DNA of 64,000 nt from Rhodoblastus sp. 17X3. Lineage in GTDB: Bacteria; Pseudomonadota; Alphaproteobacteria; Rhizobiales; Beijerinckiaceae. Both the position numbers and the translations under genes were made by a program. The notes under the pieces are model-generated. The model had not been told where the DNA came from, made no database searches, and saw only the letters and a program-made list of their open reading frames with translations. Positions 7,655 through 56,931 of this stretch are shown one piece after another. The stretch covers positions 62,001 through 126,000 of the forward strand of contig NZ_JASHHX010000002.1 in assembly GCF_030056575.1 (NCBI RefSeq), read 5' to 3'. Each line of letters begins with the position of its first letter. Position 1 is the stretch's first letter.

Positions 7655-8653
7655 ATGGCCGCCGCAAATCCTGCGCCGCCGGAAAGCGGCAACGTCCGTC
7701 TGGCCGCCTTTCTCGGCGATGGCGACGATGTTTCGATCTATCGCGCCATGCTCCTCATTCGGCGATTCGAGGAAAAAGCCGGCCAGTTGTTCGGAATGGG
7801 CCTCATCGGCGGCTTCTGCCATCTCTATATCGGGCAGGAGGCCATCGTGGTCGGCATGAGGCTCGCTGCGCGCGAGTCCGACCAGTTCATCGCCTCCTAT
7901 CGCCATCACGGCCAGTTGCTCGCCTGCGGCGCCGACCCGCGCGCGGTCATGGCGGAAATGACCGGGCGGCGCGGCGGGCTTTCGGCCGGCAAGGGCGGCT
8001 CGATGCATATGTTCGCGCCGGAATGCGATTATTACGGCGGCCATGGAATTGTTGGCGCCCAGGCCTCGATCGGGGCGGGGCTGGCCTTCGCAAACGCCTA
8101 TCGCGGCGACGGGCGCGTCTGTGTCTGCTTCTTCGGCGATGGCGCCGCGGACCAGGGCCAGATCGCGGAGACCTTCAACATGGCGGCGCGCTGGCGCCTG
8201 CCGATCGTCTTCGTCATCGAGAACAACCGCGCCCAGCCGAGCGGGGCTGGCCGCCCGGGGCATCTCGCCCGCCGCGGCGCCGCCTTCGACATTCCCGGCG
8301 AAACCATCGATGGCATGAGCGTGGAGGCGGTGCGCGAGGCGGGCGCGCGGGCGATCGAACGCGCGCGAAGCGGCGGCGGGCCGACCGTTCTGGAAATGCG
8401 CACCGAACGCTATCGCGGCCATTCGCTGGCCGATCCCGCCAAATACCGGCGCAAGGACGAGACCCGGGCTTCGCAGGCGCCGGACCCCATCGAGCGCCTG
8501 CGCGAAAAGATCCTGAGCAGCGGCCTTGCCGACGATGACCATTTGAAACGGCTGGACGCCCAGGTCCGCTCCATCGTGGCGGAGGCGGCGGAATATGCCG
8601 CGCACAGCCCCGAGCCCGATGCAGCGGATCTCGATACCGATGTGCTGATCTGA
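7655..8653 (+). CDS. pdhA: Pyruvate dehydrogenase-type E1 component, alpha subunit
   Basis: A 332-residue thiamine-diphosphate dehydrogenase alpha subunit. MLLIRRFEEKAGQLFGMGL, the GGHGIVGAQ segment, the ThDP/Mg motif GDGAADQGQ...ENN and the second loop YRGHSLADPAKYR are conserved. Two changes stand out. After ENNR the usual YxMGTS loop is replaced by AQPSGAGRPGH, and GDGAANQGQ has become GDGAADQGQ. The start ATG follows GGGAGG with 4 nt spacing. A much longer open frame upstream (from 7163) overlaps ftsB and is not needed. It pairs with the beta subunit 23 nt downstream. The substrate may be pyruvate or another 2-oxoacid. Confidence 0.88.
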   Translation: MAAANPAPPESGNVRLAAFLGDGDDVSIYRAMLLIRRFEEKAGQLFGMGLIGGFCHLYIGQEAIVVGMRLAARESDQFIASYRHHGQLLACGADPRAVMAEMTGRRGGLSAGKGGSMHMFAPECDYYGGHGIVGAQASIGAGLAFANAYRGDGRVCVCFFGDGAADQGQIAETFNMAARWRLPIVFVIENNRAQPSGAGRPGHLARRGAAFDIPGETIDGMSVEAVREAGARAIERARSGGGPTVLEMRTERYRGHSLADPAKYRRKDETRASQAPDPIERLREKILSSGLADDDHLKRLDAQVRSIVAEAAEYAAHSPEPDAADLDTDVLI

Positions 8654-8676: not shown

Positions 8677-10050
8677 ATGGCGACCCGTGAGACTCACCAG
8701 GAGACGCCTCAAGAGACGCCTCAAGAAACGCGACATGAGATGACCGACGCGACGACTTTTGTGCTTATGCCCGCGCTTTCGCCCGAGATGAAATCCGGCA
8801 AGCTTGCGAAATGGCTGAAGCGTGAAGGCGACCGCGTCGATGCGGGCGACATTCTGGCGGAGGTCGAGACGGACAAGGCGACCATGGAAGTCGAGGCCGC
8901 CGAATCCGGCGTGCTGGAGCGCATCCTCGCGCCGGAGGGGGCGGAGAATATAGCCGTCAATTCGCCCATCGCGGTGATCGCGCCGGACGATTTACCTGCC
9001 TCGTCGCCGCTGGCGCTCTGCGCGCAGGCAGCAAACGACTTGCCCGAGGCCGAAGAGGAATTCGTGCTGCGCATCACGGTGCGCGAGGCTCTGCGCGAGG
9101 CTCTGGCCGAGGAAATGCGGCGCGACGCCAATGTGTTCGTGCTGGGCGAGGAGGTCGGCGATTCGCAGGGCGCATTCAGGATCACGCAGGGGCTTTTGCA
9201 GGAATTTGGCGCGCGGCGGGTGGTGGATTCGCCGATCTCGGAACACGCCTTCGCCGGGCTTGGCGTGGGCGCGGCCATGGCCGGGCTGCGTCCGGTGATC
9301 GAATTCATGAGCTTCAATTTCGCGCTGCAGGCGATGGACCATATCGTCAATTCCGCCGCCAAGACGCTCTATATGTCGGGCGGCGCGCTGAACATTCCGA
9401 TCGTGTTTCGCGGCCCGAACGGGTCGCGGGCGCGGGTCGGCGCGCAGCATGCGCAGGATTTCTCGGCCTGGTTCGCCCATATTCCCGGCCTCAAGGTCGT
9501 CGCGCCCTATACCGCCGCCGACGCCAAGGGCCTGCTCAAGGCCGCGATCCGCGATCCCAATCCGGTGATCTTCCTCGAGCACGAAAAGCTCTATGGCCAA
9601 AGCTTCCCGGCGCCGCGCGACAAGGATCACCTGGTCGAGATTGGCGCCGCCAATATATTTCGCGCGGGGCGGGACATCACGTTCATCGCTTTCTCTCATG
9701 CCGTCGGCCTCGCGTTGAAAGCCGCCGAACGGCTGAGCGAGGAGGGGATAGAAGCCGAAGTGATCGACCTGCGCACGCTGCGTCCGCTGGACATGAACAC
9801 GATCCTTGGCTCGGTCGCCAAGACCGGGCGCTGCGTCATCGTCGAGGAGGGCTGGCCGCGAGGCGGGATCGGCGCGGAGATTTCCGCGCGCCTGATGGAA
9901 GAGGCCTTCGACGATCTCGACGCGCCGGTGGCGCGGGTGACGGGCAGGGACGTTCCCATGCCCTATGCCGGCAATCTGGAAAAGCGCGCGCTGCCGACCG
10001 AGGCCGACATTGTTGCGGCGGCCAGGAAGGCGCTCTATCTGAAAGCTTGA
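8677..10050 (+). CDS. pdhB: Lipoyl-domain-bearing PDH E1 beta subunit
   Basis: A 457-residue protein. It has a short linker (residues 1-25) with a PQET repeat from 12-bp tandem repeats at 8689-8736, then a lipoyl domain at about 26-103 with the intact motif [10 protein letters not shown] (Lys67, codon 8875-8877). The transketolase-like E1 beta body follows from about residue 125. INSAAKTLY-like, [32 protein letters not shown] and [11 protein letters not shown] are conserved. Alphaproteobacterial E1 beta subunits often carry a lipoyl domain like this. An ATG at 8740 is an alternative start that would drop the repeat linker. In this operon it holds the only lipoyl domain with a lysine. Confidence 0.93.
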
Positions 10051-10083: not shown

Positions 10084-10371
10084 ATGAGCGAGTTGAAACG
10101 CGAATTGTCGGTTCCGCCCGACGTCGAGACCAATGGCGGCACGGAAATCCTGCGCCTGTTCATCAGTTCCGGGGCCATGTCCTTGTCCATGCAGCGCGCT
10201 TTCGCGGAGCCGGAGGCCTGGGGTCGCCTGCTCGCGGAACTGGCGCAGCAGGCGGCGGCGCTTTACGCCCGCGAAACGCCGCTCGACGCCGAGTCGGCGC
10301 TGGCGGACATCCGCATCGCGCTCGACGCCGCCCTGGACCAGATCGAATCCGGTCAGACGCCGCTCAATTGA
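10084..10371 (+). CDS. DUF5076-like small protein of the pdh operon
   Basis: A 95-residue acidic, largely helical protein with ISSGAMSLSMQRAFAEPEAW and a C-terminal LADIRIALDAALDQIE. I recognise it as the small DUF5076-type protein often found between pdhB and pdhC in Hyphomicrobiales; that recognition is from memory. A GGGAG ribosome binding site precedes the ATG. The function is unknown, and its fixed position suggests a role with the dehydrogenase complex. Confidence 0.75.
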   Translation: MSELKRELSVPPDVETNGGTEILRLFISSGAMSLSMQRAFAEPEAWGRLLAELAQQAAALYARETPLDAESALADIRIALDAALDQIESGQTPLN

Positions 10372-10397: not shown

Positions 10398-11504
10398 ATG
10401 GCGATTGCGATCCTGATGCCCTCCCTCGGAGCCGCCATGCGGAAGGGGCGGCTGACGCGCTGGCTGCGCCGCGAGGGCGATCTCGTCGAGGCGGGCGAGC
10501 CGGTCGCCGAGATCGTCACGCCTCACGCGACCATGGATGTCGAGGCGCCGCAGACCGGCGTGCTGGCGCGCATCATTTTCGCGGCGGGCGAAGCCGAAAT
10601 CGCGGCGGGCTTGGAAATCGGCCTGATCGAGCCGGGGCCAGCGCCGCATCAGTCTTCCGAGGCGCGATCAGGGCGCCGCGCCGCGCCGGCGGCTTCGCCG
10701 CGCGCGCGCCGCCTGGCGCGCGAGGCGGGCTTCGATCTTTCAGGCGTTGTCGGCGGCGCCCCCAATGGCCGCATCGTCGAGTCCGACGTCCGCGTCGCAA
10801 TCGAGGCGCATGGGCGGGATCCACGACCGCCGGGCGCAACTCCGCCTCTCCGCGCGCGGGACGGGCGGGCGCCGCCGTTGATCGAGGCGGCGCAATGGAC
10901 GCCGCAGGTCCATCTCGAAGCCGATTGCCGCATCGACGCGCTGGAAGCCCTGCGCGCGGAACGCAACAACGCCACGCGCGCCGCGCACAAAACCCGAATT
11001 TCGCTGCTCGATTGCGTGGTCAAGGCGCTCGCCGGGGCTTTGGTCCGGACGCCGCGCGCCAATGTCGCGCTCACGCCCAAGGGTTATGAACTGGCCCGCC
11101 ACGCCGACGTCGCTCTCGGAATGGTCTTCGACGGCGAGATCGTCGCGCCAGCGCTGGCCGCCGCCGAGGCGATGTCTCTGGAAGAAATCGCCGCCGCGCG
11201 CGCCGCATTTTTGGCCGGGCGCTTTTCGGCGAACTCCTTCGTCGGCGGGGCCAGCTTCATCGTCAATCTCGGCCATTTTGGCGTCAAGCGCGTGTTCCCG
11301 GTCGTCGTCGCGCCTTGGACCAGCGTGCTCGGAGTCGGCGCTTCGGAAAAACGCGTCGTCGTGGAGGACGGGGCCGCAACGATCGCCACCGTGCTTGCGG
11401 TGACGCTGGCTGTCGACCGCCGCGCCATGGACGAGCGTGCGGCCGGCGCCTTGCTCGCGGCCTTCAGGCAACTGATCGAACGTCCGGCGGGACTGCTCGA
11501 TTAA
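10398..11504 (+). CDS. Degenerate dihydrolipoamide acyltransferase (E2-like)
   Basis: A 368-residue protein with E2 architecture: lipoyl-like domain (residues 1-77), peripheral subunit-binding domain (about 95-135, ASPRARRLAREAGFD...GRIVESDV) and catalytic-type domain (about 160-368). Both signature residues are changed. The lipoyl motif TDKATM reads TPHATM, so the lysine is His43 (codon 10524-10526). The active-site DHRxxDG reads DRRAMDE, so the catalytic histidine is Arg341 (codon 11418-11420) and the Gly is Glu. The frame is otherwise open and full, so this is not a simple pseudogene. An AGGGACC site precedes the ATG. It may be a structural core or have a new role; the lipoylated acetyl-transfer function should be absent. 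Confidence 0.85.
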   Translation: MAIAILMPSLGAAMRKGRLTRWLRREGDLVEAGEPVAEIVTPHATMDVEAPQTGVLARIIFAAGEAEIAAGLEIGLIEPGPAPHQSSEARSGRRAAPAASPRARRLAREAGFDLSGVVGGAPNGRIVESDVRVAIEAHGRDPRPPGATPPLRARDGRAPPLIEAAQWTPQVHLEADCRIDALEALRAERNNATRAAHKTRISLLDCVVKALAGALVRTPRANVALTPKGYELARHADVALGMVFDGEIVAPALAAAEAMSLEEIAAARAAFLAGRFSANSFVGGASFIVNLGHFGVKRVFPVVVAPWTSVLGVGASEKRVVVEDGAATIATVLAVTLAVDRRAMDERAAGALLAAFRQLIERPAGLLD

Positions 11505-11569: not shown

Positions 11570-12544
11570 ATGGCCGTCGTCATCGACACCCTGAAATCCG
11601 ATCCTCGCAAGCAGGACGAGGCTCGTCCGCGCCACCCCGAAAAGGCGCACAAGCCGGACCAGCCCATCGCGCGAAAGCCGGACTGGATCCGCGTCAAGGC
11701 GCCGGGATCGAAGGGCTGGGCCGAGACCAACGCCATCGTCAAGGCCAACAAGCTGGTGACCGTCTGCGAAGAGGCGGGCTGCCCCAACATGGGCGAGTGC
11801 TGGGAAAAGAAGCACGCCACCTTCATGATCATGGGCGACACCTGCACCCGAGCCTGCGCCTTCTGCAACGTCAAGACCGGCCTGCCCGCGCCGCTCGACG
11901 CGGCCGAGCCCGCCCATATCGGCGAGGCGACCGCCAAGCTGGGCCTGTCGCATGTGGTCGTGACCTCGGTCGACCGCGACGATCTGGACGACGGCGGCGC
12001 CGCTCATTTCGGGGCGGTCATTGCGGCGATCCGCGCCGCCAGCCCCGCCACCACCATCGAAATCCTGACGCCGGATTTTTTGCGCAAGCCCGGGGCGCTG
12101 GAGCGCGTGGTCGCGGCCAAGCCGGACGTTTTCAACCACAATCTTGAAACCGTGCCCTCGAACTATCTTACGGTGCGTCCGGGAGCGCGTTATTTCCACA
12201 GCCTGCGCCTGCTGCAGAAGGTGAAGGAGCTGGACCCGGATATTTTCACCAAGTCCGGCATCATGCTGGGGCTCGGCGAGGAGCGCAACGAAGTGTTGCA
12301 ACTGATGGACGACCTTCGCTCGGCGGAGGTCGATTTCCTCACCATCGGGCAATATTTGCAGCCGACCCGCAAGCATCATCCGGTCAAGGACTTCATCCCG
12401 CCCGAACAGTTCAAGGCCTATGAGTCCATCGCCTACGCCAAGGGCTTCCACCTGGTTTCGTCCTCGCCATTGACGCGCTCGTCGCATCATGCCGGCGAGG
12501 ATTTCGAACGGCTCCGCGCCCGCCGGCGCGCTTCGCGGGGGTGA
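11570..12544 (+). CDS. lipA: Lipoyl synthase
   Basis: A 324-residue radical-SAM enzyme that inserts two sulfurs into octanoyl groups on lipoyl domains. The auxiliary cluster motif [13 protein letters not shown] and the radical-SAM motif CTRACAFC are both intact. GLGEERNEV and the C-terminal [11 protein letters not shown] are typical. It is the last enzyme gene after the E2-like gene, and no dihydrolipoamide dehydrogenase (lpd) lies between them, although that gene often sits here in relatives. Confidence 0.97.
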
Positions 12545-17567: not shown

Positions 17568-20500
17568 TCACCCTTCTCGCGGTCGCGGCGCCGGCGTCAG
17601 CGCGCCCGCCGCGTCGCGCGCGAGTTTGCGCCGCCAGTTGGGGCGTTCGCGGTCGGTGCCGGGAAGATTGACGCCTGTCGTCTCGCCGAGAAGGTCGTCG
17701 ATCTGGAACAGGACCAAAGCGGCGTTCGCCTTGGCGATATAGGCGTGGATTGCCGCAACGAGCGCCGGATCGGAATCGTCCGGCTTGAGATCTTCCGCCG
17801 CAAGAGCCTTTCGCAGACCGGTCTCGTCGTCGCGGCGGCGCAGGCGTTCGGCCTTGGCGGTCTCGGATGAAATGAGGCCGAGCGCGGCTTTTTCCTCGAT
17901 GTCCGCGCCCAGCCGCCAGCCGGCCAGCGTCGGCAGGTCGTGGGTCGAGGCGCAGGCCAAAGCCTTATGGGGATAGGCCGAGGGCGGCGCGAAATCGTCG
18001 CCGTGGCGCTCGAAAAACAGCACGCGATAGCTCAGCACATTGGCCGCCGCCATTTTCTCGCGAAAGCCATTCGGCACCGTGCCGAGATCCTCGCCGATGA
18101 CGAGGCAGCGCGCGCGAAGACTTTCCAGCGCCAGTTCGCCGAGAAGATCGTCGAGCGGGTAGGACAGATAAGCACCATCCAGCGCGGGCGCGCCGTCAGG
18201 GACAATGAACAGCCGGTCCAGGGCCATGACGTGGTCGATCCGAAGCGCGCCGGCATGACGCATGTTCGCGCGCAACAGGCCGCTGAAGGCGTCATAGCCG
18301 GTGCGCGCCAGCGCCAGCGGATTGGGCGGCGGCAGGTTCCAGACCTGCCCGCATTCCGCGAAAGGATCGGGCGGCGCGCCGACCGAGACGCCTTGCATGA
18401 ACAGGTCGCCTTCCACCAGAACTTCGCACCCATCCGGCGCGGCGCCGACGGCGAGATCGCGAAACAGGCCGAGCGAAAGCCCGGCGGCCTCGCCGCGCGC
18501 GGCGGCGCGGGCCAGTTGACGGTCGCACAGCCATTGCTCGAAACAGATCGCGCGAAGTTCTTCGGCATGGTCGCGCGCAAATGCCTCAACATCGGTCGGC
18601 CCTTGCCGGGGGGCGCCACGCCGCGCCATGGCTTCGAAAGCCGCGAACAGCCGCAGTCGCGCGCCGCCCTCCGCGACAAAACCCTCGAAGTCGTGCGCCG
18701 GGGGGAAGTTAGGATCAGCCGACGCCTTTTGTTCAAAGGCCGAGAAATGTGCGGCGAGCGCGCGGGCTTTCAGCGCCCAGACAGCCGGATAGTCGACCGC
18801 GCCGGTCTGCGAGAGAGCCTTGGCCCGCGCGCGCGTTTCCGCATCGAGCGGGCAGGGCAGGCCGGATGTCTCCGCGAGCGCGCCGAGGTCAAGACTGATC
18901 GGGTCGAGGAAATTGCGGTCGCTGGGATGATAGGGGCTGGCGCGCTCGCGCTCCTGCGTGAAGAGGGCGTGGAGCGGATTGATCCCGAGCGTCGCATAGC
19001 CCGCGCGTCCGGCAGCCTCGACGAGTTCCCCCAGCGTGGTGAAATCGCCAATGCCCTGATCGCCGTCGCGGCGCAGGCTGTAAAGCTGGGCGCTGATTCC
19101 GGCCGCGCCGACGTCGAGCGCTTTCGGCCAGTAACAGGCGCGCGGCGCGACTGTCAGATGGCAAAGCATGGTGGGATCGCCGGCGAGAGAGAGCTTGTAA
19201 CGGCCGATGGGGAGCGGGGGGAGCGTCGCAAATTGCACAGTGAAAAAGCCGCCGTCGCAGGCGCGCTGCTCGGCGCGGCGAAAGGCTTCCGGCGCGATGA
19301 GCCGCCGCGCGCCGCTCTCGTCCACGATCTCCAGTTCCGTCCACGTTTCGTCGATGACCAGCGGCGCCTCGATCGTTTCGCCCTCGCGGACAACGAGGGC
19401 ACGGGGCAGCACACGGCGGTCGCGCTCGCTGGCGAGACGTTTAAGGCTGGCGCGGACCTCGCGCTGCGTCGCTGCATTGAGGCCCATGGCTTGGAGCAAG
19501 GCGCGCTTGGTCGAATCCGGCACGACATGGCGCGTCCCGCTGATGTCATGCCAATCGGGCGCCAACCCGGCCGCGCGCGCGAGCGCGTCGAGCGTCTCCG
19601 GCGCTGGCGTCTCGTCGAGCCGCGCGGCGTCCTCTTCAGGCGTCTCGATCAGGACCAGCGACGCGCGCGGCGCGACGACCAAGACCTCGCCGCAATCGAA
19701 ACAGGCGCCGTCCGCCGCGCCATCTTCAGCCCGCGTGTCGAGCGCGCGGCGCCAGAGAAAATTCTCGCGCGGCTGCGGCAGGCGGAAATGCGCCGCCTCC
19801 CGCGCCGCGTTGAATAAGATGCCCGCGCGCGAACCGTCGGCATGGAAAAAACTCGCGAGAAAACGGCGCCCGCTTTCCTGCCATTGTCCGTCGCGGAGGA
19901 TTTCGCCATGGGCGCCGCGCCATTCGACATCGGCGAGGCCGCCGTCCTGCGGCGCGCCGGTCAGGAATCGATCCTGCGTGAAGGCGGGCGTCGATTTGCG
20001 CAAGGCGATCAGGGCGCGCGCGCAGGCGACCAGTCGCGCATCGGCGTTTGCCCAGTCGAGCCAGGCGGTCGCATTGTCCTGCGCATAGGCGTTGTTGTTG
20101 CCATGCTGGGTCTGCCCGAGTTCGGCGCCCATCGACAGCATCGGCGTCCCGCGCGCGAGCAGGAGCAGGGTCAGCAGGTTGCGCTGGTCGCGCCGCCGCG
20201 CCGCGCGAATGTTCTCATCCGCCGTCTCGCCCTCGGCGCCATTGTTCCAGGAGTGATTGGCGTCGGTCCCGTCGCGATTGTCCTCGCCATTGGCCTCGTT
20301 GTGCTTGCGCTCGTAGGAGACGAGATCGGCGAGGGTGAAGCCGTCATGGGCGGTGACGAAATTGATTCCACGCGAGGGCGGCTTGCGGTTCTGGAACACA
20401 TCCGCCGACCCGGCAAGCCGCGTCGCCAGCGCGCCGATCATGCCCGCGTCGCCGCGCCAGAATTTTCGCGCCGCATCGCGGAAATTATCGTTCCATTCGC

Positions 20501-21659
20501 CCCAGCCTGCCGGGAAGCGCCCGATCTGATAACCGCCCGGGCCAATGTCCCATGGCTCGGCGATCAGCTTGAGGTCGCGCAACAGCGGGTCTTGCGCGAT
20601 GGCGGCGAGCAGGGGCGCATGGGGGTCGAACCCTTCCATGCGGCGCGCGAGAGTCGTGGCGAGGTCGAAGCGGAAGCCGTCAACGCCGCCGTAAAGCGCC
20701 CAGGCGCGCAGGGCGTCCATGGCGGTGCGCAGGGTCGCGGGATGATCGAGCCGCAGGATGTTGCCGCAGCCGGCGTCGTCGATGTAGCGGGCGCGGTCTG
20801 CCGGATCGAGGCGGTACGAGACGGCATTGTCCAGCCCGCGCAGGCAGAGCGTCGGACCGTCGCTGTCGCTTTCGCCGCTATGATTGAGCACCACGTCGAT
20901 CAGCACTTCGAGGCCAGCCGCCTGTAACGCGGCGACGCTCTCCCGCACTTCGCGCCAGCCGCCCGGCGCAAGGCGCGGTTCGGGCGCCATCAGCGCGACG
21001 GGGTTATAGCCCCAGTAATTGGTCAGGCCTGCGGCCTGCAAATGCCGCTCGTCGATCCATGCGGCGCAGGGCATGATTTCCAGCGTCGTCACGCCAAGCA
21101 GCTTGAGATGCGCGATTGCGACGGGATGGGCGAGGCCCGCGAAGGTTCCGCGCACGGCTTCGGGCAGGCTTTCGAGCGCGCGGGTGAAGCCGCGCACATG
21201 CAATTCATAAATGATGGTTTCGGACCACGGAATTTTCCGCCGCTTCGGCGTCGCCTCCTGCGGCGCCGTGGCGACGGCCTTGGGCGCGAAGGGCGCGCTG
21301 TCCAAAGGCGAGCAGGCGAAAAAACTCTCGTGCAGTTCGATCGGCCCGTCGAGCGCGAGCGCATGCGGGTCGAGCAGCAGCTTGTTCGGGTCGAAGCGCA
21401 GGCCCTCGCCCGGGCGCCATGGGCCATGGGCGCGAAAGCCGTAAAGCGCGCCTTCTTTCAGGCCGGGGACGAATCCATGAAAGACCGGGCCTGTTCGTCC
21501 AGGCAACGCGAGGCGCGCGATTTCCTGTGCGCCGCTTGCGCCGAACAGACAGAGTTCGATGCGTTCCGCCGTCTCGGAATAGACCGCGACATTGGCGCCG
21601 CCTTCAGTCAGCTTCAGGCCGAGAGGCTCGGGCGAGCCGGGCAGAATCCGCCCGATCAA
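17568..21659 (-). CDS. glgX-malQ: Fused glycogen debranching enzyme GlgX and 4-alpha-glucanotransferase MalQ
   Basis: A 1363-residue bifunctional protein. Residues about 1-675 are GlgX (GH13, CBM48 at the N-terminus) with nucleophile Asp332 in [10 protein letters not shown], acid Glu368 in [10 protein letters not shown] and HD at 438-439 in VTAHDGFTL. Residues about 685-1363 are MalQ (GH77) with nucleophile Asp1142 in [10 protein letters not shown], Glu1190 in [10 protein letters not shown] and HD at 1240-1241 in STHDLPTL. All key residues of both halves are present. GlgX cuts outer branches and MalQ redistributes the released maltodextrins, so one chain joins both debranching steps, as in the eukaryotic debranching enzyme. 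Its ATG overlaps the glgA stop. Confidence 0.95.
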
Positions 21660-29790: not shown

Positions 29791-31197
29791 CTACGGCGTA
29801 TTCGCCGGCGGGGCCTCTTCCCGCGCGGGCCGGGCGATTCCGGCCTGCTTTTCGATGAGCGCGGCGAATTTGTCGGTCCAGCCGACAGGCGGAAGGTGGC
29901 TCAGGGCCAGATCGCTCTTCGCGCGGAGAGCGGCGCCATCATATGAACGATTGTCGAAGCCTGGCGCGCGCGGATCGTCGCCGGACCAGAACAGGGTCTG
30001 GGCGAGATTGTTCAGCTCGAGAATGACAACCTTGCGGTCATCCGGCCCCCGCAGCTCCAGCACGAAGCCGCAATGGTCGCTCAGATAGGTTTTCAGCGCG
30101 CAGCACGGCGCGCCGAGCGCGGCGGCGGCGCCTTGCGCCTTCCGGGCGCCAACCAGCCGCGCCCGCGTGATGAAGGGCAGATGGGCGCGCCAGAATGCGC
30201 GGCGGGCCGCCAGAACGGAAGCGTCATCCGTGCGGAGGTCCTCCACGATGCGGAAGGAGGTATCGAGCGTCTCCTCGACCAGCCATTTTTCGGCCTGCGC
30301 GAGGTCGGCTTCGGGGACGTCGCGCCAGTCATCCAGACCCGCGCGCGGGTCGCCGGCAATGCGGAAACAGCGTTTGAGCGCCCGGGTTTTGGCTTCCGCG
30401 TCGCCGCGTGCGGCCGCCCAGCCGATCAGGCCGGAAATGAAGGCGATTTTCGCCCGCGTCCGCGCCGCAGCCGGACCGCTGGCGCCGAGCAGGCCGGCCG
30501 GCTCGAAGAAATCCAGCAGCAGATCGGCGGCGTCCCATCGCACCTGCCCCCGGCGCTCAGTTTCGCGCAGGGCATAGGCTTCCGCGACGGCGACGAGAAA
30601 GCCGGAGTTTTGCAGGATGGTCCGGGTCTGGGCGTTTTTCGCGGCCTCGTGCAGAAAGGCGAGATCGCCGGAGGCCAGCGCCTCGGCGGCGCGCGAAACA
30701 GCCTCCGCGCCGCGCCACAGGCTCCAGCCGCGCGCGAATTCGCCGAACCGGCCCCACAGCAGGTCTTGCCGGCCCGAAAGCCAGTCCTGCGTCAGTCCGG
30801 CGGCGGGGTTGTCCGGGTCGAAATGGCGCAGCAGCGCGATGCAGACGCGCGTTTCGGCGATGCGCGGCTTCCAGTCGGTTTCGGCCCAGCGCAGCCAGGC
30901 CTCGATGTCGGCGGGTTGGGCGGCCCAAGGCGCGCGCGGGCGCCAGAACAGTTCGAGCACCGCTTTCTTTTCCGCAAAATCCAGCGCGGCGAGATCGCCC
31001 CGGCTCGCCGCCAGCTTGCGTGCGGCGCGGTCGATCAGGGAGTCCGGCGCGCCCGGCGCGGCGCGTCCCGGGCCGTGGCGCTCTTCGAGCTCGCCGGCGA
31101 GGCGCGTCAGACGCGAGCGCCGCCTAAGTCCGCCGATATTTTGCGAAAGCAGCGGCGGAGAGCTCTGGCCCTGGCCCGGACTATTTTCCCCCGGCAT
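29791..31197 (-). CDS. zorC-like: EH_Signature-domain protein, ZorC-like
   Basis: A 468-residue soluble protein. I assign it to the EH_Signature (ZorC) group from AGDPRAGLDDW near residue 281, RRAFWRAHLPFI near 332, and a conserved Glu (E394 in VVILELNN) and His (H434 in LALSHLPPVGW) spaced 40 residues apart at the C-terminus. In Zorya anti-phage systems ZorC binds DNA and works with the ZorAB motor. The ATG overlaps the zorB stop by 17 nt. No zorD (helicase/nuclease) or zorE (HNH) lies next to it; the small secreted protein and glgP follow. The assignment is by motif only. Confidence 0.65.
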   Translation of the reverse strand: MPGENSPGQGQSSPPLLSQNIGGLRRRSRLTRLAGELEERHGPGRAAPGAPDSLIDRAARKLAASRGDLAALDFAEKKAVLELFWRPRAPWAAQPADIEAWLRWAETDWKPRIAETRVCIALLRHFDPDNPAAGLTQDWLSGRQDLLWGRFGEFARGWSLWRGAEAVSRAAEALASGDLAFLHEAAKNAQTRTILQNSGFLVAVAEAYALRETERRGQVRWDAADLLLDFFEPAGLLGASGPAAARTRAKIAFISGLIGWAAARGDAEAKTRALKRCFRIAGDPRAGLDDWRDVPEADLAQAEKWLVEETLDTSFRIVEDLRTDDASVLAARRAFWRAHLPFITRARLVGARKAQGAAAALGAPCCALKTYLSDHCGFVLELRGPDDRKVVILELNNLAQTLFWSGDDPRAPGFDNRSYDGAALRAKSDLALSHLPPVGWTDKFAALIEKQAGIARPAREEAPPANTP

Positions 31198-32119
31198 CGA
31201 GTCTGTCCAGCCGCTGGTTCAGGTCGCGCAGGGCTCTTTCGACCTGATCGCGGTTGACCGCCATGATCAGCCTGACTTCGATACGGCGGTCGGTCTCCAT
31301 CACCGCCTTGTCGTTGCGCTGCTTTTCGCTCAACCCGTCGGTGACGGGCCGCGTGTCGGCATAGCCGCTGACGCCCAGCAGGCTCTTGCCTTCGGCGTTT
31401 TTCAGATTGGGCACGCGCGGATCGGAGTCCCGCGCGATGCGATAGGCCTCGATGGCGCGGGCGGCGGAAAGGTCCCAGTTGTCGCGGAAACGATCGGCCC
31501 CGCCGCGCAAGGGGGCGGCGTCGGTATGGCCCTCGATATAGACGGCGTTGAGCAAGCTGCCCTGCGACAGAGGCGGGCAGGCGGCATTTGGTTGGAAACT
31601 GGCGGGCGCGCCCGGCAGAAAACAGGGAACCACATCGGCCAGCGCCACGCCCAACAGGCGGATGACGTCGCGCCCGTGCGGGGTCGGGTCGGCCTGGGCG
31701 GATTCGAACAGATTGCCGGTCGGCAGGCGCAGCACGCCGCTGCGGAAATCGGCCTCGACGTTCACGCCCTGCGCCGCCAGCCTATCCTTCAGCATCTGCA
31801 GGATTTTCGTGCGCGTGGCGTCGGCTTCCGCGAGGCGGTCGAGCAGCGGGACGACGCCTTCCGTCTTGACGAAGGAGACGAATTCAGAAAATTGCGCGGC
31901 GCGCTTTTTCAGGGCGTCGCGTTCGATCTTGACCTGCGCCAACTCCTGCGCGGTCTGGTCGTAAAGCGGGCGCGGCACGGCGTCTTCCATCATCACCAGC
32001 GACAAGGCCAGCACCATGATGATGAAGATGAAGACCACGCCGACCATGAGATCGGCGACGGGCGCGAAGACGTCCTTCTTTTCCTCTTCCTCGATCTTGT
32101 GAAGGCGGGAGGCGAACAT
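31181..32119 (-). CDS. zorB-like: ZorB-like MotB/OmpA stator protein
   Basis: A 312-residue inner-membrane protein. The N-terminus has one helix with the ion-carrying aspartate Asp23 (FAPVADLMVGVVFIFIIMVL), as in MotB/ZorB. A coiled linker follows (residues about 50-110), then an OmpA-like peptidoglycan-binding domain with VYIEGHTDAAPL, NWDLSAARAIEA, GYADTRPV and DRRIEVRL. Start and zorA stop overlap by 1 nt (TGATG). Together with the A subunit it should form a proton or sodium driven stator anchored to the cell wall. Confidence 0.85.
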   Translation of the reverse strand: MFASRLHKIEEEEKKDVFAPVADLMVGVVFIFIIMVLALSLVMMEDAVPRPLYDQTAQELAQVKIERDALKKRAAQFSEFVSFVKTEGVVPLLDRLAEADATRTKILQMLKDRLAAQGVNVEADFRSGVLRLPTGNLFESAQADPTPHGRDVIRLLGVALADVVPCFLPGAPASFQPNAACPPLSQGSLLNAVYIEGHTDAAPLRGGADRFRDNWDLSAARAIEAYRIARDSDPRVPNLKNAEGKSLLGVSGYADTRPVTDGLSEKQRNDKAVMETDRRIEVRLIMAVNRDQVERALRDLNQRLDRLDAGGK

Positions 32120-35100
32120 CAGCGAGTCTCCGCCGCCTTCTCCGCGGCCTTTTTGGCCGCGCGATTGTCGACGATGTCGCCAATGTCGATCAGCGCGGCT
32201 TCGAGGCTGCCGATGGAGCGCGCGATTTCATTGTCATAAGTTTCGATACATTGCGAGATTTCGCGGCCGAGCGACTGCACGCCGCCGGTCAGTTCGTTGA
32301 GCGTGCGGGCGACGGCCTGCTCCACGTTGCGGAAGTTTTCGGCCTGCGAGCCGAGGCTTTTATTGGCTTGCGTCGCCGCGCGGCGAAAGCTGTCGACGAC
32401 CGTGCGCCCCGCGTCGGACATGACCCGGATGTGCTCGGCGGCGCCGGAGAAATTATCCATTGCGCCATGCAGCGAGGCGGCGGCCGCCGACAGCGGAGTC
32501 GCGGCGCTGGCGACGGAGCCTGCCGCGTCGGCCAGCGATTCGGACGCCCCCGAAACGATGGCGCCGGCCTTTTCCAGCCGCGCATTCTGGGCGTCCATGC
32601 CCAGGGCGACTTCGGCCAGCTTGAGCGACAGGCCGCGCGCGGAATCGGCGAATCGCTCCACGGTCTTGGTCATCAGTTCCGCCGAGCTTTCCGCAGCGCC
32701 GGAAAGGATTTTTGCGCCCTGCGCCGCACCGGAGGCGAGCGCATCCTGGCTGTCGCGCAATTGCGCGCCGGAGGCTTCGCTCGCCTGCATCAGCCGCTCG
32801 GCGGCCACCGACAGCGATCGGGAAATCTCCTCCACCCGCGCGGAAAACAGATCGGCGCCGCCCCGGCTGGCCTGGGTCGCGGCGGCGGCGACGCTGTCCA
32901 GCGCGGTCTGGACCTTCTGGCCGATCTCGCGCGACGATTGCTCCGAGGCGTCGGCCAGAGCATGGGGCATGGCTAGGATTTTTGCCTCGAACGAGGCCAA
33001 GGTCGCGGCGAGCGAGGACTGGCCCTGTTCGAAACCGGCGCTCATCTTTCGCGCGGCGTCCGTCAGGGCCGCCGCCGAGCGGCCGATCTCGTCGCCGAAG
33101 CCGCCTTCCGTGGCCTTGATCTTTTCGGGCAGCGTGTCGAAGGCGGCGAGCGAATGGGTCATTTGCGAGCCGAAGGCTGCGATATGGCTGGCGATCTGGT
33201 CGCCTGAGGCCGAAATCTGCTCGATCCGTCCGGCGGCCTCGCCGAAACGCGCCATGGCGTCCCGGAAGGTCAAGGTGGCGGTGGTCAGCGGCGCGGCGGC
33301 GCCTTCCATCGCGCCCGCCGCGAGCGCCAGATTGTTGGAGGCGCCGGAGACGATTTCGCCCGCCTTGTCGAGCCGTTCGTTATGGGCGCCCAGCGCCTGT
33401 TCGGTCTGGTCGAGCCGCGCCGAGAGCTTGCCGACGGCTGCGGCGAAGGCCTCGACCATGCGGGTTAGCCGCGCGGCGGATTCCTCGCCGGAGGCGTTGA
33501 CGGCCTGCATGCCCTCGGTCATCTGCGCGCGGGATTCGACGCCCGCCTGGGCCAGCGACGAAGCGGCGGCGGCGAGCGCGGCGGCGACGCTTTCGACGCG
33601 CGCGGTAATCTGTTCGCTGTTGGTGCGGCTGGCCTCTTCGGTCACCTGCGCCGCGCTGTCGAGCGTGGCGAGCAGGGCGGAGCCGGCTTCGCGCGTGCTT
33701 TGCTCGGCGGCCGAGGCGATGGCGGGGGCGATGCCGGCGATCTTGCCTTCGAAAGCGGCGAGCGTCGCGGCGAGGCGATCCTGCGCCTGTTCCATCTGTT
33801 CGGCCATCCGGGACGCCGATTGCGACAGAACGCCGGCGCCGCGCCCGATCTCGTCGCCGAAGCCGGTCTGGGTCGCCTTGACAGCGTCGGAAAGCGATTC
33901 GAACGACGCCAGCGAATGCGACATATGCGCGCCATAGGCGGCGATATGGCTGGCGATCTGGTCGCCCGAGGCGGAGACGACCTCGATGCGGCGCGCCGCT
34001 TCGCCAAGGCCAATCATCGCCTCTCGGAATGTGTGGGTGGCCTCGGTCAGCGGCGCGGCGGCGCCTTCCATTGCGTCGGCGGCGTGGACCAGTTCGCTGG
34101 AAGCGCCGGCGACGATCTCGCCGGATTTGTCGAGCCGCTCGTTATGGACGCCGAGCGCCTGTTCGGTCTGGTCGAGGCGCGTGGCGAGACGGCTGACGGC
34201 GGAGGCGAAGGCCTCGACCATGCGGGTCAGCCGGGCGGCGGCTTCCTCGCCCGAGGCCGAAACGACCCGGGCGCCCTCGGCCATCTGGGTGCGGGAATCG
34301 GCGCCCGCCTGCGTCAAGGCCGAAGCCGCCGAGGCGAGGGCCGCGGCGACACTCTCAATACGCGCCGACATTTTCTCGGCATTGGCGCGGCTGGTGTCTT
34401 CCGCCGCCTGACTGGCGTTTTCGAGCGTCTGGCGCAGGGCGGCGCCCATGTCGCGGGCGCCCTGTTCGGAGGTCGCGGCGAAGGCGGCGGGCAGGCCGGC
34501 GATCTTCGTCTCGAAGGCCGCGAGCGTCGCCGCCATGCGGTCCTGGCTCTGCTCCATCAGCGCAGCCATGCGCCCCGCCGACTGGGTCAGCTGGTCGGCG
34601 CCGCGTCCGATCTCGCCGCCAAAGCCCGTTTCGACCTCGGCGAATTTGCGCGGCATCGAATCGAGCGCGGCGAGCAGCGCGCCCATCTGTGCGCCGAAGG
34701 AGTCGAGGTGGCGGCCGACGCCGTCCTGCCAGAGATTGCCGAAGGTCGCGCCCGCGCTTTCGGCCACCCCGGCATTCGCCTCGCCGACCCGCGCGCTCAT
34801 GGCCGCGATTTCATCCCGCAAGGGCGTGAAGGCCGAGGCGGCGCCATCCGCCAAGGTCTGGGACATTTTGGAAAATGCGGCGTCGAGCCGCGTCGAGAGG
34901 TCTTCGGCGAGCGCGCCGAACTGGGCGTTCTGCGCCTCGGCGAGGCGCAATTGCCGGCGCAGAATCATTTCCGGCGCGACATAGGTCGAAAGCGCGCGGA
35001 TTTCCTGCAGCAGGTCTTCCTCGGCCACCGTCTGGGCGGAGGCTTGCTGGCGCGCGACCACGCTCCAGAAAATATAGGCGAGGATGCCGGCGATCGAGGT

Positions 35101-35649
35101 GATGAATTTCACCGAGCTGACGGCGAGAATGCCTTCGACGGCGCGCTTGAGCTGCTCGGGGGAGAGGGAATCATGGCCCGCGCCGCCGCCGCCAAGCTGC
35201 AGCAGGGCCGCGGAGAGGCCGACGAAAGTGAAGAACAGGCCGACGGTCAGGAACACGCCGGCGAGCGTCGAGGACCATTTCGGATAGGAATGGCCGGGCA
35301 GATGGACGAGGGCGAAGAAATCCGCCGGGTCGGAATAGCTCACCGCATTGCCGTGTTCGAATTCGACGCTGGAGCGGTAGCGCCGCCAGGCGGGGGCGAG
35401 GTCGTCGCCTTCGAACAGCGAATCGGCTTGCGCGAAAAGATCCTCTGGCGAGCGGTCGTCGCCGCGCAGGGCGCGAAGCGCGCGCGACAGGCGGCGCAGG
35501 CGGCCGACGAAGCGGCGCTCGGCCGGAACCAGCGCCAGCAGCCAGATCAGCAGCGCCGCGCCGAGGATTCCCAGCGCGATGCCAACCGCCAGCGGGCGCC
35601 CCGAGAACAGGGCGATGGGCGTCAAGATGAAGTCGGCGAAACCATCCAT
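32119..35649 (-). CDS. zorA-like: ZorA-like MotA/ExbB-family motor protein with long repeat tail
   Basis: A 1176-residue protein. Helices lie at about 19-42, 129-150 and 175-197, with the MotA/TolQ/ExbB-like core between. The rest, from about 205 on, is an Ala/Glu-rich coiled-coil tail. Three tandem repeats of 254 residues start at 341, 595 and 849 (TGFGGEIGRG, TGFGDEIGRG, GGFGDEIGRS); the third is the most diverged. In characterised Zorya systems ZorA has a long intracellular tail that senses phage or transmits motor rotation. The tail here is longer than the transmembrane part by far. First gene of the zorABC-like cluster; 99 nt from the phasin. Confidence 0.8.
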   Translation of the reverse strand: MDGFADFILTPIALFSGRPLAVGIALGILGAALLIWLLALVPAERRFVGRLRRLSRALRALRGDDRSPEDLFAQADSLFEGDDLAPAWRRYRSSVEFEHGNAVSYSDPADFFALVHLPGHSYPKWSSTLAGVFLTVGLFFTFVGLSAALLQLGGGGAGHDSLSPEQLKRAVEGILAVSSVKFITSIAGILAYIFWSVVARQQASAQTVAEEDLLQEIRALSTYVAPEMILRRQLRLAEAQNAQFGALAEDLSTRLDAAFSKMSQTLADGAASAFTPLRDEIAAMSARVGEANAGVAESAGATFGNLWQDGVGRHLDSFGAQMGALLAALDSMPRKFAEVETGFGGEIGRGADQLTQSAGRMAALMEQSQDRMAATLAAFETKIAGLPAAFAATSEQGARDMGAALRQTLENASQAAEDTSRANAEKMSARIESVAAALASAASALTQAGADSRTQMAEGARVVSASGEEAAARLTRMVEAFASAVSRLATRLDQTEQALGVHNERLDKSGEIVAGASSELVHAADAMEGAAAPLTEATHTFREAMIGLGEAARRIEVVSASGDQIASHIAAYGAHMSHSLASFESLSDAVKATQTGFGDEIGRGAGVLSQSASRMAEQMEQAQDRLAATLAAFEGKIAGIAPAIASAAEQSTREAGSALLATLDSAAQVTEEASRTNSEQITARVESVAAALAAAASSLAQAGVESRAQMTEGMQAVNASGEESAARLTRMVEAFAAAVGKLSARLDQTEQALGAHNERLDKAGEIVSGASNNLALAAGAMEGAAAPLTTATLTFRDAMARFGEAAGRIEQISASGDQIASHIAAFGSQMTHSLAAFDTLPEKIKATEGGFGDEIGRSAAALTDAARKMSAGFEQGQSSLAATLASFEAKILAMPHALADASEQSSREIGQKVQTALDSVAAAATQASRGGADLFSARVEEISRSLSVAAERLMQASEASGAQLRDSQDALASGAAQGAKILSGAAESSAELMTKTVERFADSARGLSLKLAEVALGMDAQNARLEKAGAIVSGASESLADAAGSVASAATPLSAAAASLHGAMDNFSGAAEHIRVMSDAGRTVVDSFRRAATQANKSLGSQAENFRNVEQAVARTLNELTGGVQSLGREISQCIETYDNEIARSIGSLEAALIDIGDIVDNRAAKKAAEKAAETR
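32344..34629 (-). repeat. Three 762-bp tandem repeats inside the zorA-like gene
   Basis: Units begin at codons for residues 341, 595 and 849, at about 34629, 33867 and 33105. The same period of 254 codons recurs twice. Units 1 and 2 are clearly similar throughout, for example ARLTRMVEAFA, RLDQTEQALG and SASGDQIASHIAA; unit 3 keeps the pattern with more change. Confidence 0.85.
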
Positions 35650-41077: not shown

Positions 41078-43114
41078 ATGACCCGTCCAACCACCTCCGG
41101 CCTGCCATTTCTCATTCTTCGTTCCGATAGCGGAAAATACGCCTATTGGCGGAATCTCCCGAAAGAACATGCGGCAATCGCAAAAGGAACGATCGATCTC
41201 TCCTGGGCCTTGAAGTCTCACCTCCTCGACGGGAAGCAAGTCATCAAGATTTCGCTGAAGACGGGCGATTTGACTCTCGCCCAACGCCGCTGGAGTGACG
41301 TCCATGCCCAGATCGAGGGGCTCATCGAGAGGGGCATCGTAGGCGCCAAGAACGAAGTTGTGTCGGTGGGCGGTCCAATCGACTCGCTGACCTCGGGCGA
41401 TCGGTCCGCGATTGCCGCCCAGGCGCGGCATGATGTTTTGTCCGACCATGACGCCGATTGGACTGATCCCGAAACATTAAGTCCGTTGGCGCGAGGTTTG
41501 GAACAAGCGCTAAGACGGCGCGACGCAGGCAGATTGATCTCCAATGGAGAACAGGCCAGCGGCTTCAATATTGCCGGCATGTTGAACTTCCTGGAACGCT
41601 TCCCGCCTGGAATGACACTGAATCAAATTCGTGAGGCCGCCCGTGCAATGGAAGCGGACAATGTGGCGCGAATGCTTGCTTCCGGGCGAACTTGGCCCCT
41701 TGATGGTTCCGCCGCATGGACGGAGGAGTTTGTACAGGATCCCGACAACCCGTCCGGAGAACGCGTCGTCGACAGTTATTCGTCGCCCAGCGAACTGACG
41801 ACAAGACTTGCCGAAAATGGTTACGATCTTTCAGACGAAATCGAACGTCGAAAAGTCGCTCACGCCGTGCTGATGGCCAAGGCCGCCGCTTACCAGGATA
41901 TTGGAAAGCGCAGGAATGGCGTCGCAATTGAAACGCCGCCCCGTCCCGCGCCTTTGATCGCAGACGAGAAAGGCGAGGTCTTTCCGACAATCCTCGAGAT
42001 GCATGACAACTGGTCGGACCGGGTTAAGCCCGATCGAAAGACGAAGGACGACAATCGGCTATATGTCGAACGCTTCATTTCGATGCAGGGGAACCTGAAG
42101 GTCGAGGAAATCACGCGCAAGCACATCAGGGACTTCCGCGACAAGCTGAAGAAATTTCCGGCGGCTATGCCGGCTCATGTTTCAAAGAAACCGTTTCTCG
42201 AAATTGTCGAATGGGCGGAAAAGAACGATCCGCCTAGGCTCAGTCCAGTCACGGTCAATCAAAAAGGTCTAGGCGCGCTATCGACGCTGATGCAGCTTGC
42301 CGTGAACGAATACGATTTGCCCGGCGACCCAAGCATCGGACTTCGGTTGCCCGTAACCGAGGATGACGTCCTTGAGCGCCACCCATTCACGCCGGTCTTG
42401 TTGGCCAAGTTTCCGGCGTCGCCCGTCTTCCAGAATCCGCCCAAAGTGTCGAAAGGCGGCTGCAGCGCCGCAGCTTTCTGGATTCCGCTGATCAGCCTTT
42501 ATGGCGGCGCACGGCTTGAAGAGATCGGTCAACTCCCCCTTTCCGACATTCTGTGTGAGAGTGGGATACCTTATTTCTGGTTCCGGGACGATAACGACGA
42601 AGACGGTGAAGAAAAGCCCAGGAAAAAGGGTCGCCGCCGCGGCGCGGAAAAAAGCGAAGAAGACAAGAGCATCAAGTCGAAAGCTGGCCGCCGGCGGGTG
42701 CCGTTTCATCCCGTTTTGATTGAGCTTGGGCTGCCGGAATATATTGCGGCTCGCCGGGCCGCGGGCGACAAAATGCTGTTTCCGCAACTGAACGCTTATC
42801 GAGGGCGCTGGACAAAGAACTGGTCAAGGTGGTTCGGGCGGTATTTGAACAAACACGTGACCGACGACCCAGCATTTGTTTTCCACTCGTTCCGCCATTC
42901 CTTCATTGGCGCCATGCGACGCAAAGGGATCCGCCTGGACTTCATGAAAGCCCTAGTTGGTCATGCGCGCGAACTGGAGCTTGATTTGAAAGACTTCAAA
43001 GACGTTACAGAGGAATATGGCGACGCCGTGCCGATCGCCATCCTGAATGACGTGGTGAAGCAAGTCGCCTATGCGGGCTTGAAGTTCGAACGAATCGAAG
43101 CGTTTCTGCGGTAG
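41078..43114 (+). CDS. Tyrosine-type site-specific integrase
   Basis: A 678-residue phage-type integrase. The catalytic region reads SLYGGARLEEIGQL (first Arg), FHSFRHSFIGA (HxxR), LVGHA and a Tyr in TEEYGD near the C-terminus. A core-binding-like SAM domain precedes it (about residues 305-400, VERFISMQGNLKVEEITRK). It is longer than typical 400-residue integrases because of a long N-terminal region of unknown role. It follows the tRNA-Gly in the same direction, the usual layout of an island inserted in a tRNA 3' end. Right-hand copy of the attachment site not found here. Confidence 0.9.
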   Translation: MTRPTTSGLPFLILRSDSGKYAYWRNLPKEHAAIAKGTIDLSWALKSHLLDGKQVIKISLKTGDLTLAQRRWSDVHAQIEGLIERGIVGAKNEVVSVGGPIDSLTSGDRSAIAAQARHDVLSDHDADWTDPETLSPLARGLEQALRRRDAGRLISNGEQASGFNIAGMLNFLERFPPGMTLNQIREAARAMEADNVARMLASGRTWPLDGSAAWTEEFVQDPDNPSGERVVDSYSSPSELTTRLAENGYDLSDEIERRKVAHAVLMAKAAAYQDIGKRRNGVAIETPPRPAPLIADEKGEVFPTILEMHDNWSDRVKPDRKTKDDNRLYVERFISMQGNLKVEEITRKHIRDFRDKLKKFPAAMPAHVSKKPFLEIVEWAEKNDPPRLSPVTVNQKGLGALSTLMQLAVNEYDLPGDPSIGLRLPVTEDDVLERHPFTPVLLAKFPASPVFQNPPKVSKGGCSAAAFWIPLISLYGGARLEEIGQLPLSDILCESGIPYFWFRDDNDEDGEEKPRKKGRRRGAEKSEEDKSIKSKAGRRRVPFHPVLIELGLPEYIAARRAAGDKMLFPQLNAYRGRWTKNWSRWFGRYLNKHVTDDPAFVFHSFRHSFIGAMRRKGIRLDFMKALVGHARELELDLKDFKDVTEEYGDAVPIAILNDVVKQVAYAGLKFERIEAFLR

Positions 43115-54640: not shown

Positions 54641-55353
54641 TGTTTCCAAGGCTGATCGACGGAAACCGCGCCAAGCGCGATGAACGCGGCGCCAAATGTC
54701 GTCAGGCGGCCAAGGCGGGAATCAATCGGCGCCAGCGCGCGGGCAAAAGCGCCCACTGGCGGATAGTAAACGGCGCCGCGGATGGCTGTGACGGACAGTC
54801 CCGCCTGTTCCGCGAGCGAGCGCAACTCGGACGCGCCGCGGAATCGCGCCGCCTTCCAGGTCTCCGCGCCGAGCCAGCCGCGCACACGGCGCAAAGCGGC
54901 CCACAGGCTCCAGCGCCCGAGTTCTCCGAGCACGAGCCGCCCGCCCGGACGAAGCACGCGCGCCAGCTCGCGAACGCTGCTTGCCGCATCCCGCGTGAAA
55001 CAAAGAACGGTAACGGAGAAGACCACGTCGAATGAGGCGTCGGGGAACGGCAAACGCTCGACGCGCCCTTCAACGAACGCCGCGCGGACTCCTTCGCTGG
55101 CCGCGCGCGACCGCGCGGCGGCGAGCATGGCCGGGTCAGGATCGACGCCGGTCGCCTCCGCGCCCCGAGAGGCCATGACGCAGACCAGCGCGCCGTCGCC
55201 GCAACCCACGTCGAGGACGCGGGCGCCCGCAATCTTGCCGATCATGTCGAGGATCAGTCCCTGCTCGATGGCCTCCGTGATCGCCCCAAGCGAGGTCGCC
55301 CGCCAGGCGGCGTAGGGCGCTGGGCCAATTGTTGTGGGGTCCTTCCTGCTCAT
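54637..55353 (-). CDS. Class I SAM-dependent methyltransferase
   Basis: A 238-residue UbiE/arsM-like methyltransferase fold. Motif I is VLDVGCGDGALV, motif II follows at GVDPDPAML, and DVVFSVTVLCFTRD and LRPGGRLVLGELG complete the Rossmann core. The substrate is not evident. ATG 55353 overlaps the cysteine desulfurase stop (ATGA). Confidence 0.87.
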   Translation of the reverse strand: MSRKDPTTIGPAPYAAWRATSLGAITEAIEQGLILDMIGKIAGARVLDVGCGDGALVCVMASRGAEATGVDPDPAMLAAARSRAASEGVRAAFVEGRVERLPFPDASFDVVFSVTVLCFTRDAASSVRELARVLRPGGRLVLGELGRWSLWAALRRVRGWLGAETWKAARFRGASELRSLAEQAGLSVTAIRGAVYYPPVGAFARALAPIDSRLGRLTTFGAAFIALGAVSVDQPWKQ

Positions 55354-56468: not shown

Positions 56469-56470
56469 CG

Positions 56471-56824: not shown

Positions 56825-56931
56825 CGTAGCTCCTCCGGAATTGCGAAACGTCCCGGTTCGATTGCCTGCCGCACGCCGCCGTCTTCGTCGACACGCGACG
56901 TCGTTGCGACAATTGGAACGGCGCCCGCGGC

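Follow-up and report, generated by a model that had tools for sequence, protein, structure and literature searches.

A pyruvate dehydrogenase locus with a probably inactive E2 homologue and a conserved E1 that carries its own lipoyl arm

The textbook view of 2-oxoacid dehydrogenase complexes is that E1, E2, and E3 are all needed together. The stretch of DNA analyzed here (the window, 64,000 nucleotides) holds a pyruvate dehydrogenase (PDH) operon whose E2-like subunit was flagged in a first-pass annotation as lacking both the lipoyl lysine and the catalytic histidine, which raises the question of what such an operon can still do and what keeps its other genes in place. We refer to the protein at the pdhC position as the pseudo-E2. 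The features of the locus are as follows.

7655..8653, + strand: pdhA, E1 alpha, 332 aa from the ATG at 7655; the loop after ENN (human loop B) is replaced or deleted.
8677..10050, + strand: pdhB, E1 beta with an N-terminal lipoyl domain; ETDKATM intact; start at 8677 or 8740.
10084..10371, + strand: DUF5076 protein, 95 aa, from family search and locus comparison.
10398..11504, + strand: pseudo-E2, 368 aa, from translation, Pfam, NCBIfam score, alignment, and residue table.
10410..10610, + strand: lipoyl-type domain of the pseudo-E2, residues 5-71 (Pfam Biotin_lipoyl); Lys replaced by His43 (codon 10524-10526).
10689..10793, + strand: peripheral subunit-binding domain of the pseudo-E2, residues 98-132 (Pfam E3_binding and alignment).
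10863..11495, + strand: 2-oxoacid_dh core of the pseudo-E2, residues 156-366; Ser to Val289, His to Arg341, Gly to Glu346, without MRKTIARRL.
11570..12544, + strand: lipA, lipoyl synthase, named by reading the sequence alone; lpd, found ahead of lipA in relatives, was not detected at this place.

The pseudo-E2 has the architecture of an E2, in that Biotin_lipoyl (5-71), E3_binding (98-132), and 2-oxoacid_dh (156-366) each score over their Pfam cut-offs. Its lipoyl motif reads TPHATM (His43) in place of TDKATM, and its acyltransferase motif DRRAMDE (Arg341) in place of DHRxxDG; the alignment further places Glu346 at the glycine of DHRxxDG and Val289 at the serine of the SNLG core, and the MRKTIARRL segment in the N-terminal part of the core is absent. 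Against the PDH-E2 equivalog TIGR01349, the protein reaches 196.9 bits where the cut-off is 445. The 10 reference E2 rows share 164 invariant columns, and all six rows of the window's genus have changed 56 of these and kept 41 (a further row, from G010, was read as two halves and left out). The predicted model (mean pLDDT 81.2) includes the lipoyl domain, the binding domain, and the core; the last matches the bovine E2 core 7uom with an rmsd of 2.0 and a TM-score by target of 0.84, and 6h60, an E3BP model, is also among the fold matches. The model thus predicts that the E2 core fold is retained. With no lysine to lipoylate and without the transacetylase residues, the protein is, judging from its sequence, very probably dead as an enzyme. 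The histidine is not equally demanding at every substitution: according to the available part of a study of E. coli E2o (PMC5986005), Ala, Cys, and Asn at His375 cost 54, 107, and 178 fold, respectively, Trp and Gly only two and five fold, the latter two being the variants that site saturation is said to have yielded as active; we found no mention of Arg at this position in that part of the paper.

A protein search of 60 related genomes found close kin of the pseudo-E2 (52-82% identity) only in the window's own genus, in seven of its 11 genomes. All seven have Arg at the catalytic histidine, Glu at the DHRxxDG glycine, and V, A, or I at the core serine, and the subunit-binding domain is legible in every aligned row. 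The lipoyl lysine is His in five and Gln in one (G010, read from two contig ends, unjoined), and in one the domain is missing. The protein without a lipoyl domain is that of G009 (L053 2778-3713). The alignment with related genomes that the first-pass annotation had proposed therefore bore it out: the His43 and Arg341 changes are real and clade-wide, the frame is open over 368 aa with the binding domain over its cut-off, and, with the lysine, the histidine, and the core serine lost in 7/7, the protein cannot be an ordinary E2. A sequencing error or a single-strain pseudogene was ruled out because the losses are common to seven genomes.

As a control, we read 80 named alphaproteobacterial pdhB loci, which are the best matches to pdhB and not a random draw; seven were dropped for want of a long E2 match in the piece. 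D-H-R stands in all 73 scorable E2 sequences, one of which has DHRVIGG; EIETDKA is present in 71, the pattern having failed in two. No locus in the named scan exceeds 63% identity, against 72-94% for genus members, and the scan seems to be without the window's genus. Within the genus, the other E2 types read D-H-R at 28 of 28 scored loci, several of which are fragments, including one filed under aceF that reads like sucB (L197, in G002). Two reference rows of the residue table (G062 and G146) have a gap at the E2 lipoyl lysine because the chosen start lies downstream of it.

The usual gene order in the family is eno, ftsB, pdhA, pdhB, pdhC, lpd, lipA, coq10. At 10 reference loci with a normal pdhC, whose outer genes do not lie inside every stretch, lpd comes next in nine and was not found in the stretch of G019; the DUF5076 gene, for which a literature search found no paper, sits between pdhB and pdhC in two (G062 and G103). 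In the window's genus, pdhA, pdhB, and the DUF5076 gene are kept in all 11 genomes, and no lpd match was found in the stretches read of any of them. Directly next comes lipA in seven; it lies 4 kb off in G007 and past the contig end in G010, and was not found in the stretches read of G006 and G002. Four genomes (G001, G004, G005, and G008) have lost pdhC: their PF00198 matches comprise sucB and the aceF type only, and lipA comes straight after DUF5076 at the locus. It had been suggested that the pseudo-E2 might be a structural core fed by the lipoyl domain of PdhB. Such a role is possible, but it is not essential, since these four species keep the E1 genes without any pdhC.

Elsewhere in the window, a frame at 32119-35649 (-) encodes a 1176-aa protein that is ZorA-like (anti-phage) in its N-terminal part, at 117.5 bits where the cut-off is 190, and similar to an SMC coiled coil in its C-terminal part; a further frame (31181-32119) adjoins it. 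At 17568-21659 (-), near glgA, glgC, and glycogen phosphorylase, GlgX and MalQ domains are joined in one 1363-aa protein. A 678-aa frame at 41078-43114 (+) has low third-position GC (0.64) and no NCBIfam match, and a NifS/IscS-like cysteine desulfurase frame at 55350-56912 (-) has about 150 residues ahead of the matched part, maybe a start-site artefact.

What, then, is the state of the E1 that the genus keeps? Numbered by human E1 on the 1ni4 alignment, the residue table has E1beta Glu59 and His128, the lipoyl lysine of PdhB, and E1alpha Phe61, His63, Tyr89, Arg90, Asp167, Asn196, Arg259, and His263 kept in all 11 genomes; Gly168 is kept in 10 and is Ala in G004. Glu59, His128, Arg90, and Arg259 are, as we take it, active-site residues. 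The retention of these residues together with the PdhB lysine counts in favor of an E1 that would load acyl groups. The window's E1 also exceeds the equivalog cut-offs of TIGR03182 (410.1 against 393.85 bits) and NF008854 (688 against 454 bits), the E1alpha query for the profile searches and the 1ni4 alignment having begun 10 codons before the ATG at 7655. Outgroup-invariant columns, counted with G011 and G077 excluded as references, are kept in every genus row at 96 of 193 positions in E1alpha and 150 of 240 in E1beta, and changed in every genus row at 25 and 20, respectively.

The E1alpha loop after ENN, which reads YAMGT[SA]V in 10/10 references and NNxYx[MLI]GT in 80/80 named loci, is replaced or deleted in all 11 genus genomes; Tyr198 and Met200 are lost, and Asp stands in place of Asn171. 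The available text on human E1 describes loop B (residues 195-205) as coordinating Mg and binding ThDP directly, with Met200 in the catalytic site (PMC6168537), and in the Geobacillus enzyme an inner loop likewise touches ThDP and Mg (PMC2663715, from the part of the paper at hand). By its sequence, E1 may accordingly be inactive through loss of the ThDP/Mg loop. The predicted model of E1alpha matches human E1alpha, with low confidence in both active-site loops (204-209 and 265-282); all models are of single chains and so are uninformative on the cofactor site.

Selection within the genus was estimated from pairwise dN/dS (Nei-Gojobori with bootstrap, codon bias ignored) in seven pairs for E1 and DUF5076 and five for the pseudo-E2. 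The ratios are 0.03-0.16 for the catalytic part of E1beta, 0.02-0.32 for the PdhB lipoyl arm, 0.10-0.29 for E1alpha, and 0.04-0.35 for DUF5076, compared with 0.04-0.16 in five pairs for enolase as a yardstick; E1 and DUF5076 are under purifying selection. Two of the seven pairs are without any pdhC, and there the catalytic part of E1beta gives 0.07 (G001-G005) and 0.13 (G004-G008), so that selection acts on E1 in species without an E2 partner of its own. The pseudo-E2 is constrained, more loosely than E1: its dN/dS is 0.25-0.32 in four pairs, with upper 95% limits all below 0.45, and 0.52 for G000-G009, and in the closest pair its dN is 0.108 against 0.031 for E1beta, about 3.5 times as high. 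The first-pass view that this is not plain random decay thus holds for the pseudo-E2, with the reservation of the G000-G009 pair. Its companion claim, that the neighboring genes look functional, stands in part, in that the E1 genes are open and selected, but the ThDP/Mg loop of E1alpha is lost in 11/11 and no adjoining lpd was found.

We placed these changes on trees built from Eno, FtsB, LipA, and Coq10 only, in which many rows are incomplete and the place of genus g26 is unsure. In the first tree, the four E2-less species form one clade (100/100) nested among species with a dead E2; G002 and G100 entered this tree with 11% and 10% of columns and were omitted from the second. G009 branches first at 82/76 in the first tree and is unresolved in the second, which has more genera. 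The simplest reading is that the dead E2 was already present in the ancestor of the genus and was then lost once. The stem of the genus measures 0.6 changes per column in an E1 tree and 0.195 in the first tree; as these two trees differ in their genes and rows, the contrast does no more than suggest fast E1 change at the base of the genus. Reaction-centre genes (PF00124) are present in five of the 11 genomes, exactly the four E2-less species and G009, and absent from the other six, including the window's genome. PF02461, looked for as a sign that the genus is methanotrophic, matched in 0/11 genus genomes, an absence that carries no weight since its control gave no match in any of 14 genomes.

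The window's genome (4.18 Mb in 68 contigs) has four E2 genes: sucB on contig C44, an aceF type on C17, a third type on C2 beside E1 genes, and the pseudo-E2. The genes aceE, aceF, and lpd form a single run on C17, which gives pyruvate dehydrogenation a possible basis other than the window's complex, and the candidate view of that complex as the sole PDH of the cell was ruled out. The search for a second E2 and an E3 that had been recommended at the outset thus turned up aceF and lpd, so that the second complete E2 which the first-pass annotation had named as a refutation does exist in the genome; a pairing of AceF with the window's E1 is conjecture. A second full-length aceE of this genome lies at G000:C44:87914-90559.

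Across the genus, the aceF-type E2 is present in 11/11 genomes and aceE in 10/11; aceE was not found in G007, an assembly in 280 pieces. Among the 60 relatives, aceE is over its cut-off in 15, namely 10 of the genus plus G011, G033, G035, G037, and G059. It is present in 13 of the 16 genomes without a pdhC-type match and in two of the 44 others (by genus, 4/6 against 2/44), the 44 being judged by match and not by motif, with weak or fragmentary matches in G038 and G044. In a second set, aceE occurs in eight of 12 genomes in which pdhB has no full match or E1 stands alone, and in none of 10 with a canonical pdhB, four of which had the operon read. The aceE-less members of the 12 are G016 and G083 (both 78% complete), G089, and G144, the last maybe misplaced there since its contig ends inside an lpd adjoining lipA. 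Our best reading is that AceEF took over pyruvate dehydrogenation and that the old complex was dismantled to a unit of E1 plus lipoyl arm, with the pseudo-E2 as an optional hub.

Other genera offer parallels. In genus g2, pdhA and pdhB stand alone elsewhere in the genome (G011 and G077), adjoining in G011 putative purine-gene frames read from sequence, and neither an E2 core nor lpd was found in the stretch around them. Both genomes keep the E1alpha loop and the tabulated E1 residues except Phe61 (Tyr), and both have Ala at the lipoyl lysine. G112, another g2 genome, has eno, ftsB, lipA, and coq10 side by side, the operon being gone from between ftsB and lipA. The locus of G035 (genus g26) reads ftsB, E1alpha-like, E1beta-like, DUF5076, lipA, with open frames. 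Its E1 pair (L231 3812-5877) has lost GDG, NN, Glu59, and His128, with the lipoyl lysine intact. G097 (one contig, 86% complete) has broken frames, which may be due to draft errors, but a legible lipoyl motif and DUF5076. These graded stages cut both ways: they resemble decay, yet g2 has kept the E1 residues and g26 the lipoyl arm, a difference between lineages that plain decay would not predict.

A mechanism that would account for these observations starts from a PDH complex dismantled in lineages holding an AceE-AceF-Lpd complex. E1 (PdhAB) would still bind ThDP and load the acyl group onto its own lipoyl arm, and the PdhB arm would then work in trans with the E2 core of another complex (AceF) and E3, or with a different acceptor. 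Where present, the pseudo-E2 would be an optional hub holding E1 via its binding domain, as E3BP holds E3. There is precedent for the separate steps in the accessible parts of two papers, one in which lipoyl domains are able to work unlinked from the E2 core in E. coli E2o (PMC5986005) and one in which AceF is common to two E1 in C. glutamicum (PMC7568260). That E1 and its arm have a selected role independent of E2 is likely. The whole chain, from acyl loading of the PdhB arm to hand-over in trans with AceF as the obvious acceptor, is our leading candidate for that role, one that we would stop short of calling probable. The loss of Met200 and the E1alpha loop and the eroded E1 of G035 are the strongest points against such a hand-over, and the weak constraint on the pseudo-E2 (0.52 for G000-G009, no lipoyl domain in G009, a dN some 3.5 times that of E1beta) also speaks against this explanation. 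In its most specific form, an alpha2beta2 ThDP E1 with a remodelled cofactor loop and its own lipoyl arm would live without its own E2 and E3 and pass acyl groups to a foreign complex or a non-CoA acceptor, a lipoyl-less, transacetylase-dead E2 serving as an optional hub; we regard this as rather doubtful.

The same observations can be read in other ways. The retention of E1 without pdhC in 4/11 genus genomes would also be expected if PdhAB were a ThDP decarboxylase or carboligase, maybe acting on another 2-oxoacid, that frees its product without an E2 and carries the lipoyl arm incidentally. In E1alpha, the changes common to all 11 genus rows at 25 of 193 outgroup-invariant columns would agree with this, as would g2, where pdhA-pdhB are alone and lipoyl Lys has become Ala while the E1 residues other than Phe61 are kept; but a decarboxylase would have no need of the PdhB lysine that is kept in 11/11, and the loop loss may cost ThDP binding, so that we consider such an activity unlikely. 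The loop loss itself, found throughout the genus, would suit a non-catalytic lipoylated scaffold or regulator, in which a particle built of E1, arm, DUF5076, and pseudo-E2 would have a sensing or modulating task, acting for instance on AceEF activity, or would be a lipoyl acceptor of LipA. G035, where open E1-like frames without catalytic motifs keep the lipoyl lysine and DUF5076 beside lipA, fits a non-catalytic role or decay, and in G097 the lipoyl motif and DUF5076 remain legible though other frames are broken. The other E1 active-site residues examined, which would be superfluous in a scaffold, are kept in 11/11 (Gly168 in 10/11), and we judge this role to be unlikely as well. Least probable in our estimation is that the complex became redundant once AceEF arrived and is being lost piecewise in a slow decay, the remainder having no selected role. 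Its stages can be lined up from the full operon through the loss of lpd, a dead E2, and the loss of E2 to an eroded E1 (G035 and G097) and a missing operon (G112), and the presence of aceE goes with loss; against it, the E1 frames are open in 11/11, dN/dS is far below 1 in every pair, two clades stand about 28% apart in E1beta, and the His to Arg and Gly to Glu changes of the pseudo-E2 are held in 7/7.

The dismantled complex of our best reading can be set beside several known systems. Inactive E2 homologues are already known: mammalian E3BP (PDHX), in the available text of PMC7494870, is homologous to E2 and acts as a hub, its core being catalytically inactive. The pseudo-E2 resembles it in its core and in having 6h60 among its fold matches, and the binding-domain sequence that E3BP-like recruitment of a partner would use is kept; the hub role here is a proposal. 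E3BP, however, has viable carrier domains and sits among active E2, whereas the pseudo-E2 lacks the lipoyl lysine and has no active E2 in its operon, so that the E3BP-type combination of an inactive core with a working lipoyl domain is not found. The locus, gene order, and homologous E1 are those of the alphaproteobacterial PDH operon (pdhA, pdhB with arm, pdhC, lpd; 10 reference loci), from which the window's genus differs in having no lpd that was found, a dead or missing pdhC, and no E1alpha loop. In the C. glutamicum hybrid PDH-ODH, a second E1 uses the AceF-Lpd subcomplex (PMC7568260, in the portion available), a likeness that is conjectural for the window's E1; OdhA carries its own succinyltransferase (PMC10415282, likewise in part), whereas the window's E1 has only a lipoyl arm and a conjectural partner. 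The stand-alone pdhA-pdhB of g2 (G011 and G077, with G138 by match) is likewise an E1 away from E2 and E3 in aceE genomes, yet it is opposite to the window's genus in lying at another locus, keeping the E1alpha loop, and losing the lipoyl lysine. Our literature search, which gives weak support to an absence, found no description of a bacterial PDH locus in which several species share a lipoyl-less, transacetylase-dead E2, or of an E1-plus-arm module kept without E2 and E3.

The loci compared here form a natural series of a machine taken apart stepwise, with E1 plus arm as the common remainder in 11 genomes of one genus. The series opens to test what an E1 and its tethered lipoyl domain are capable of when E2 is absent, and how much of the E1 active site is dispensable. 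It also carries a warning for annotation, as the names pdhA, pdhB, and pdhC would wrongly credit the cell with a second standard PDH.
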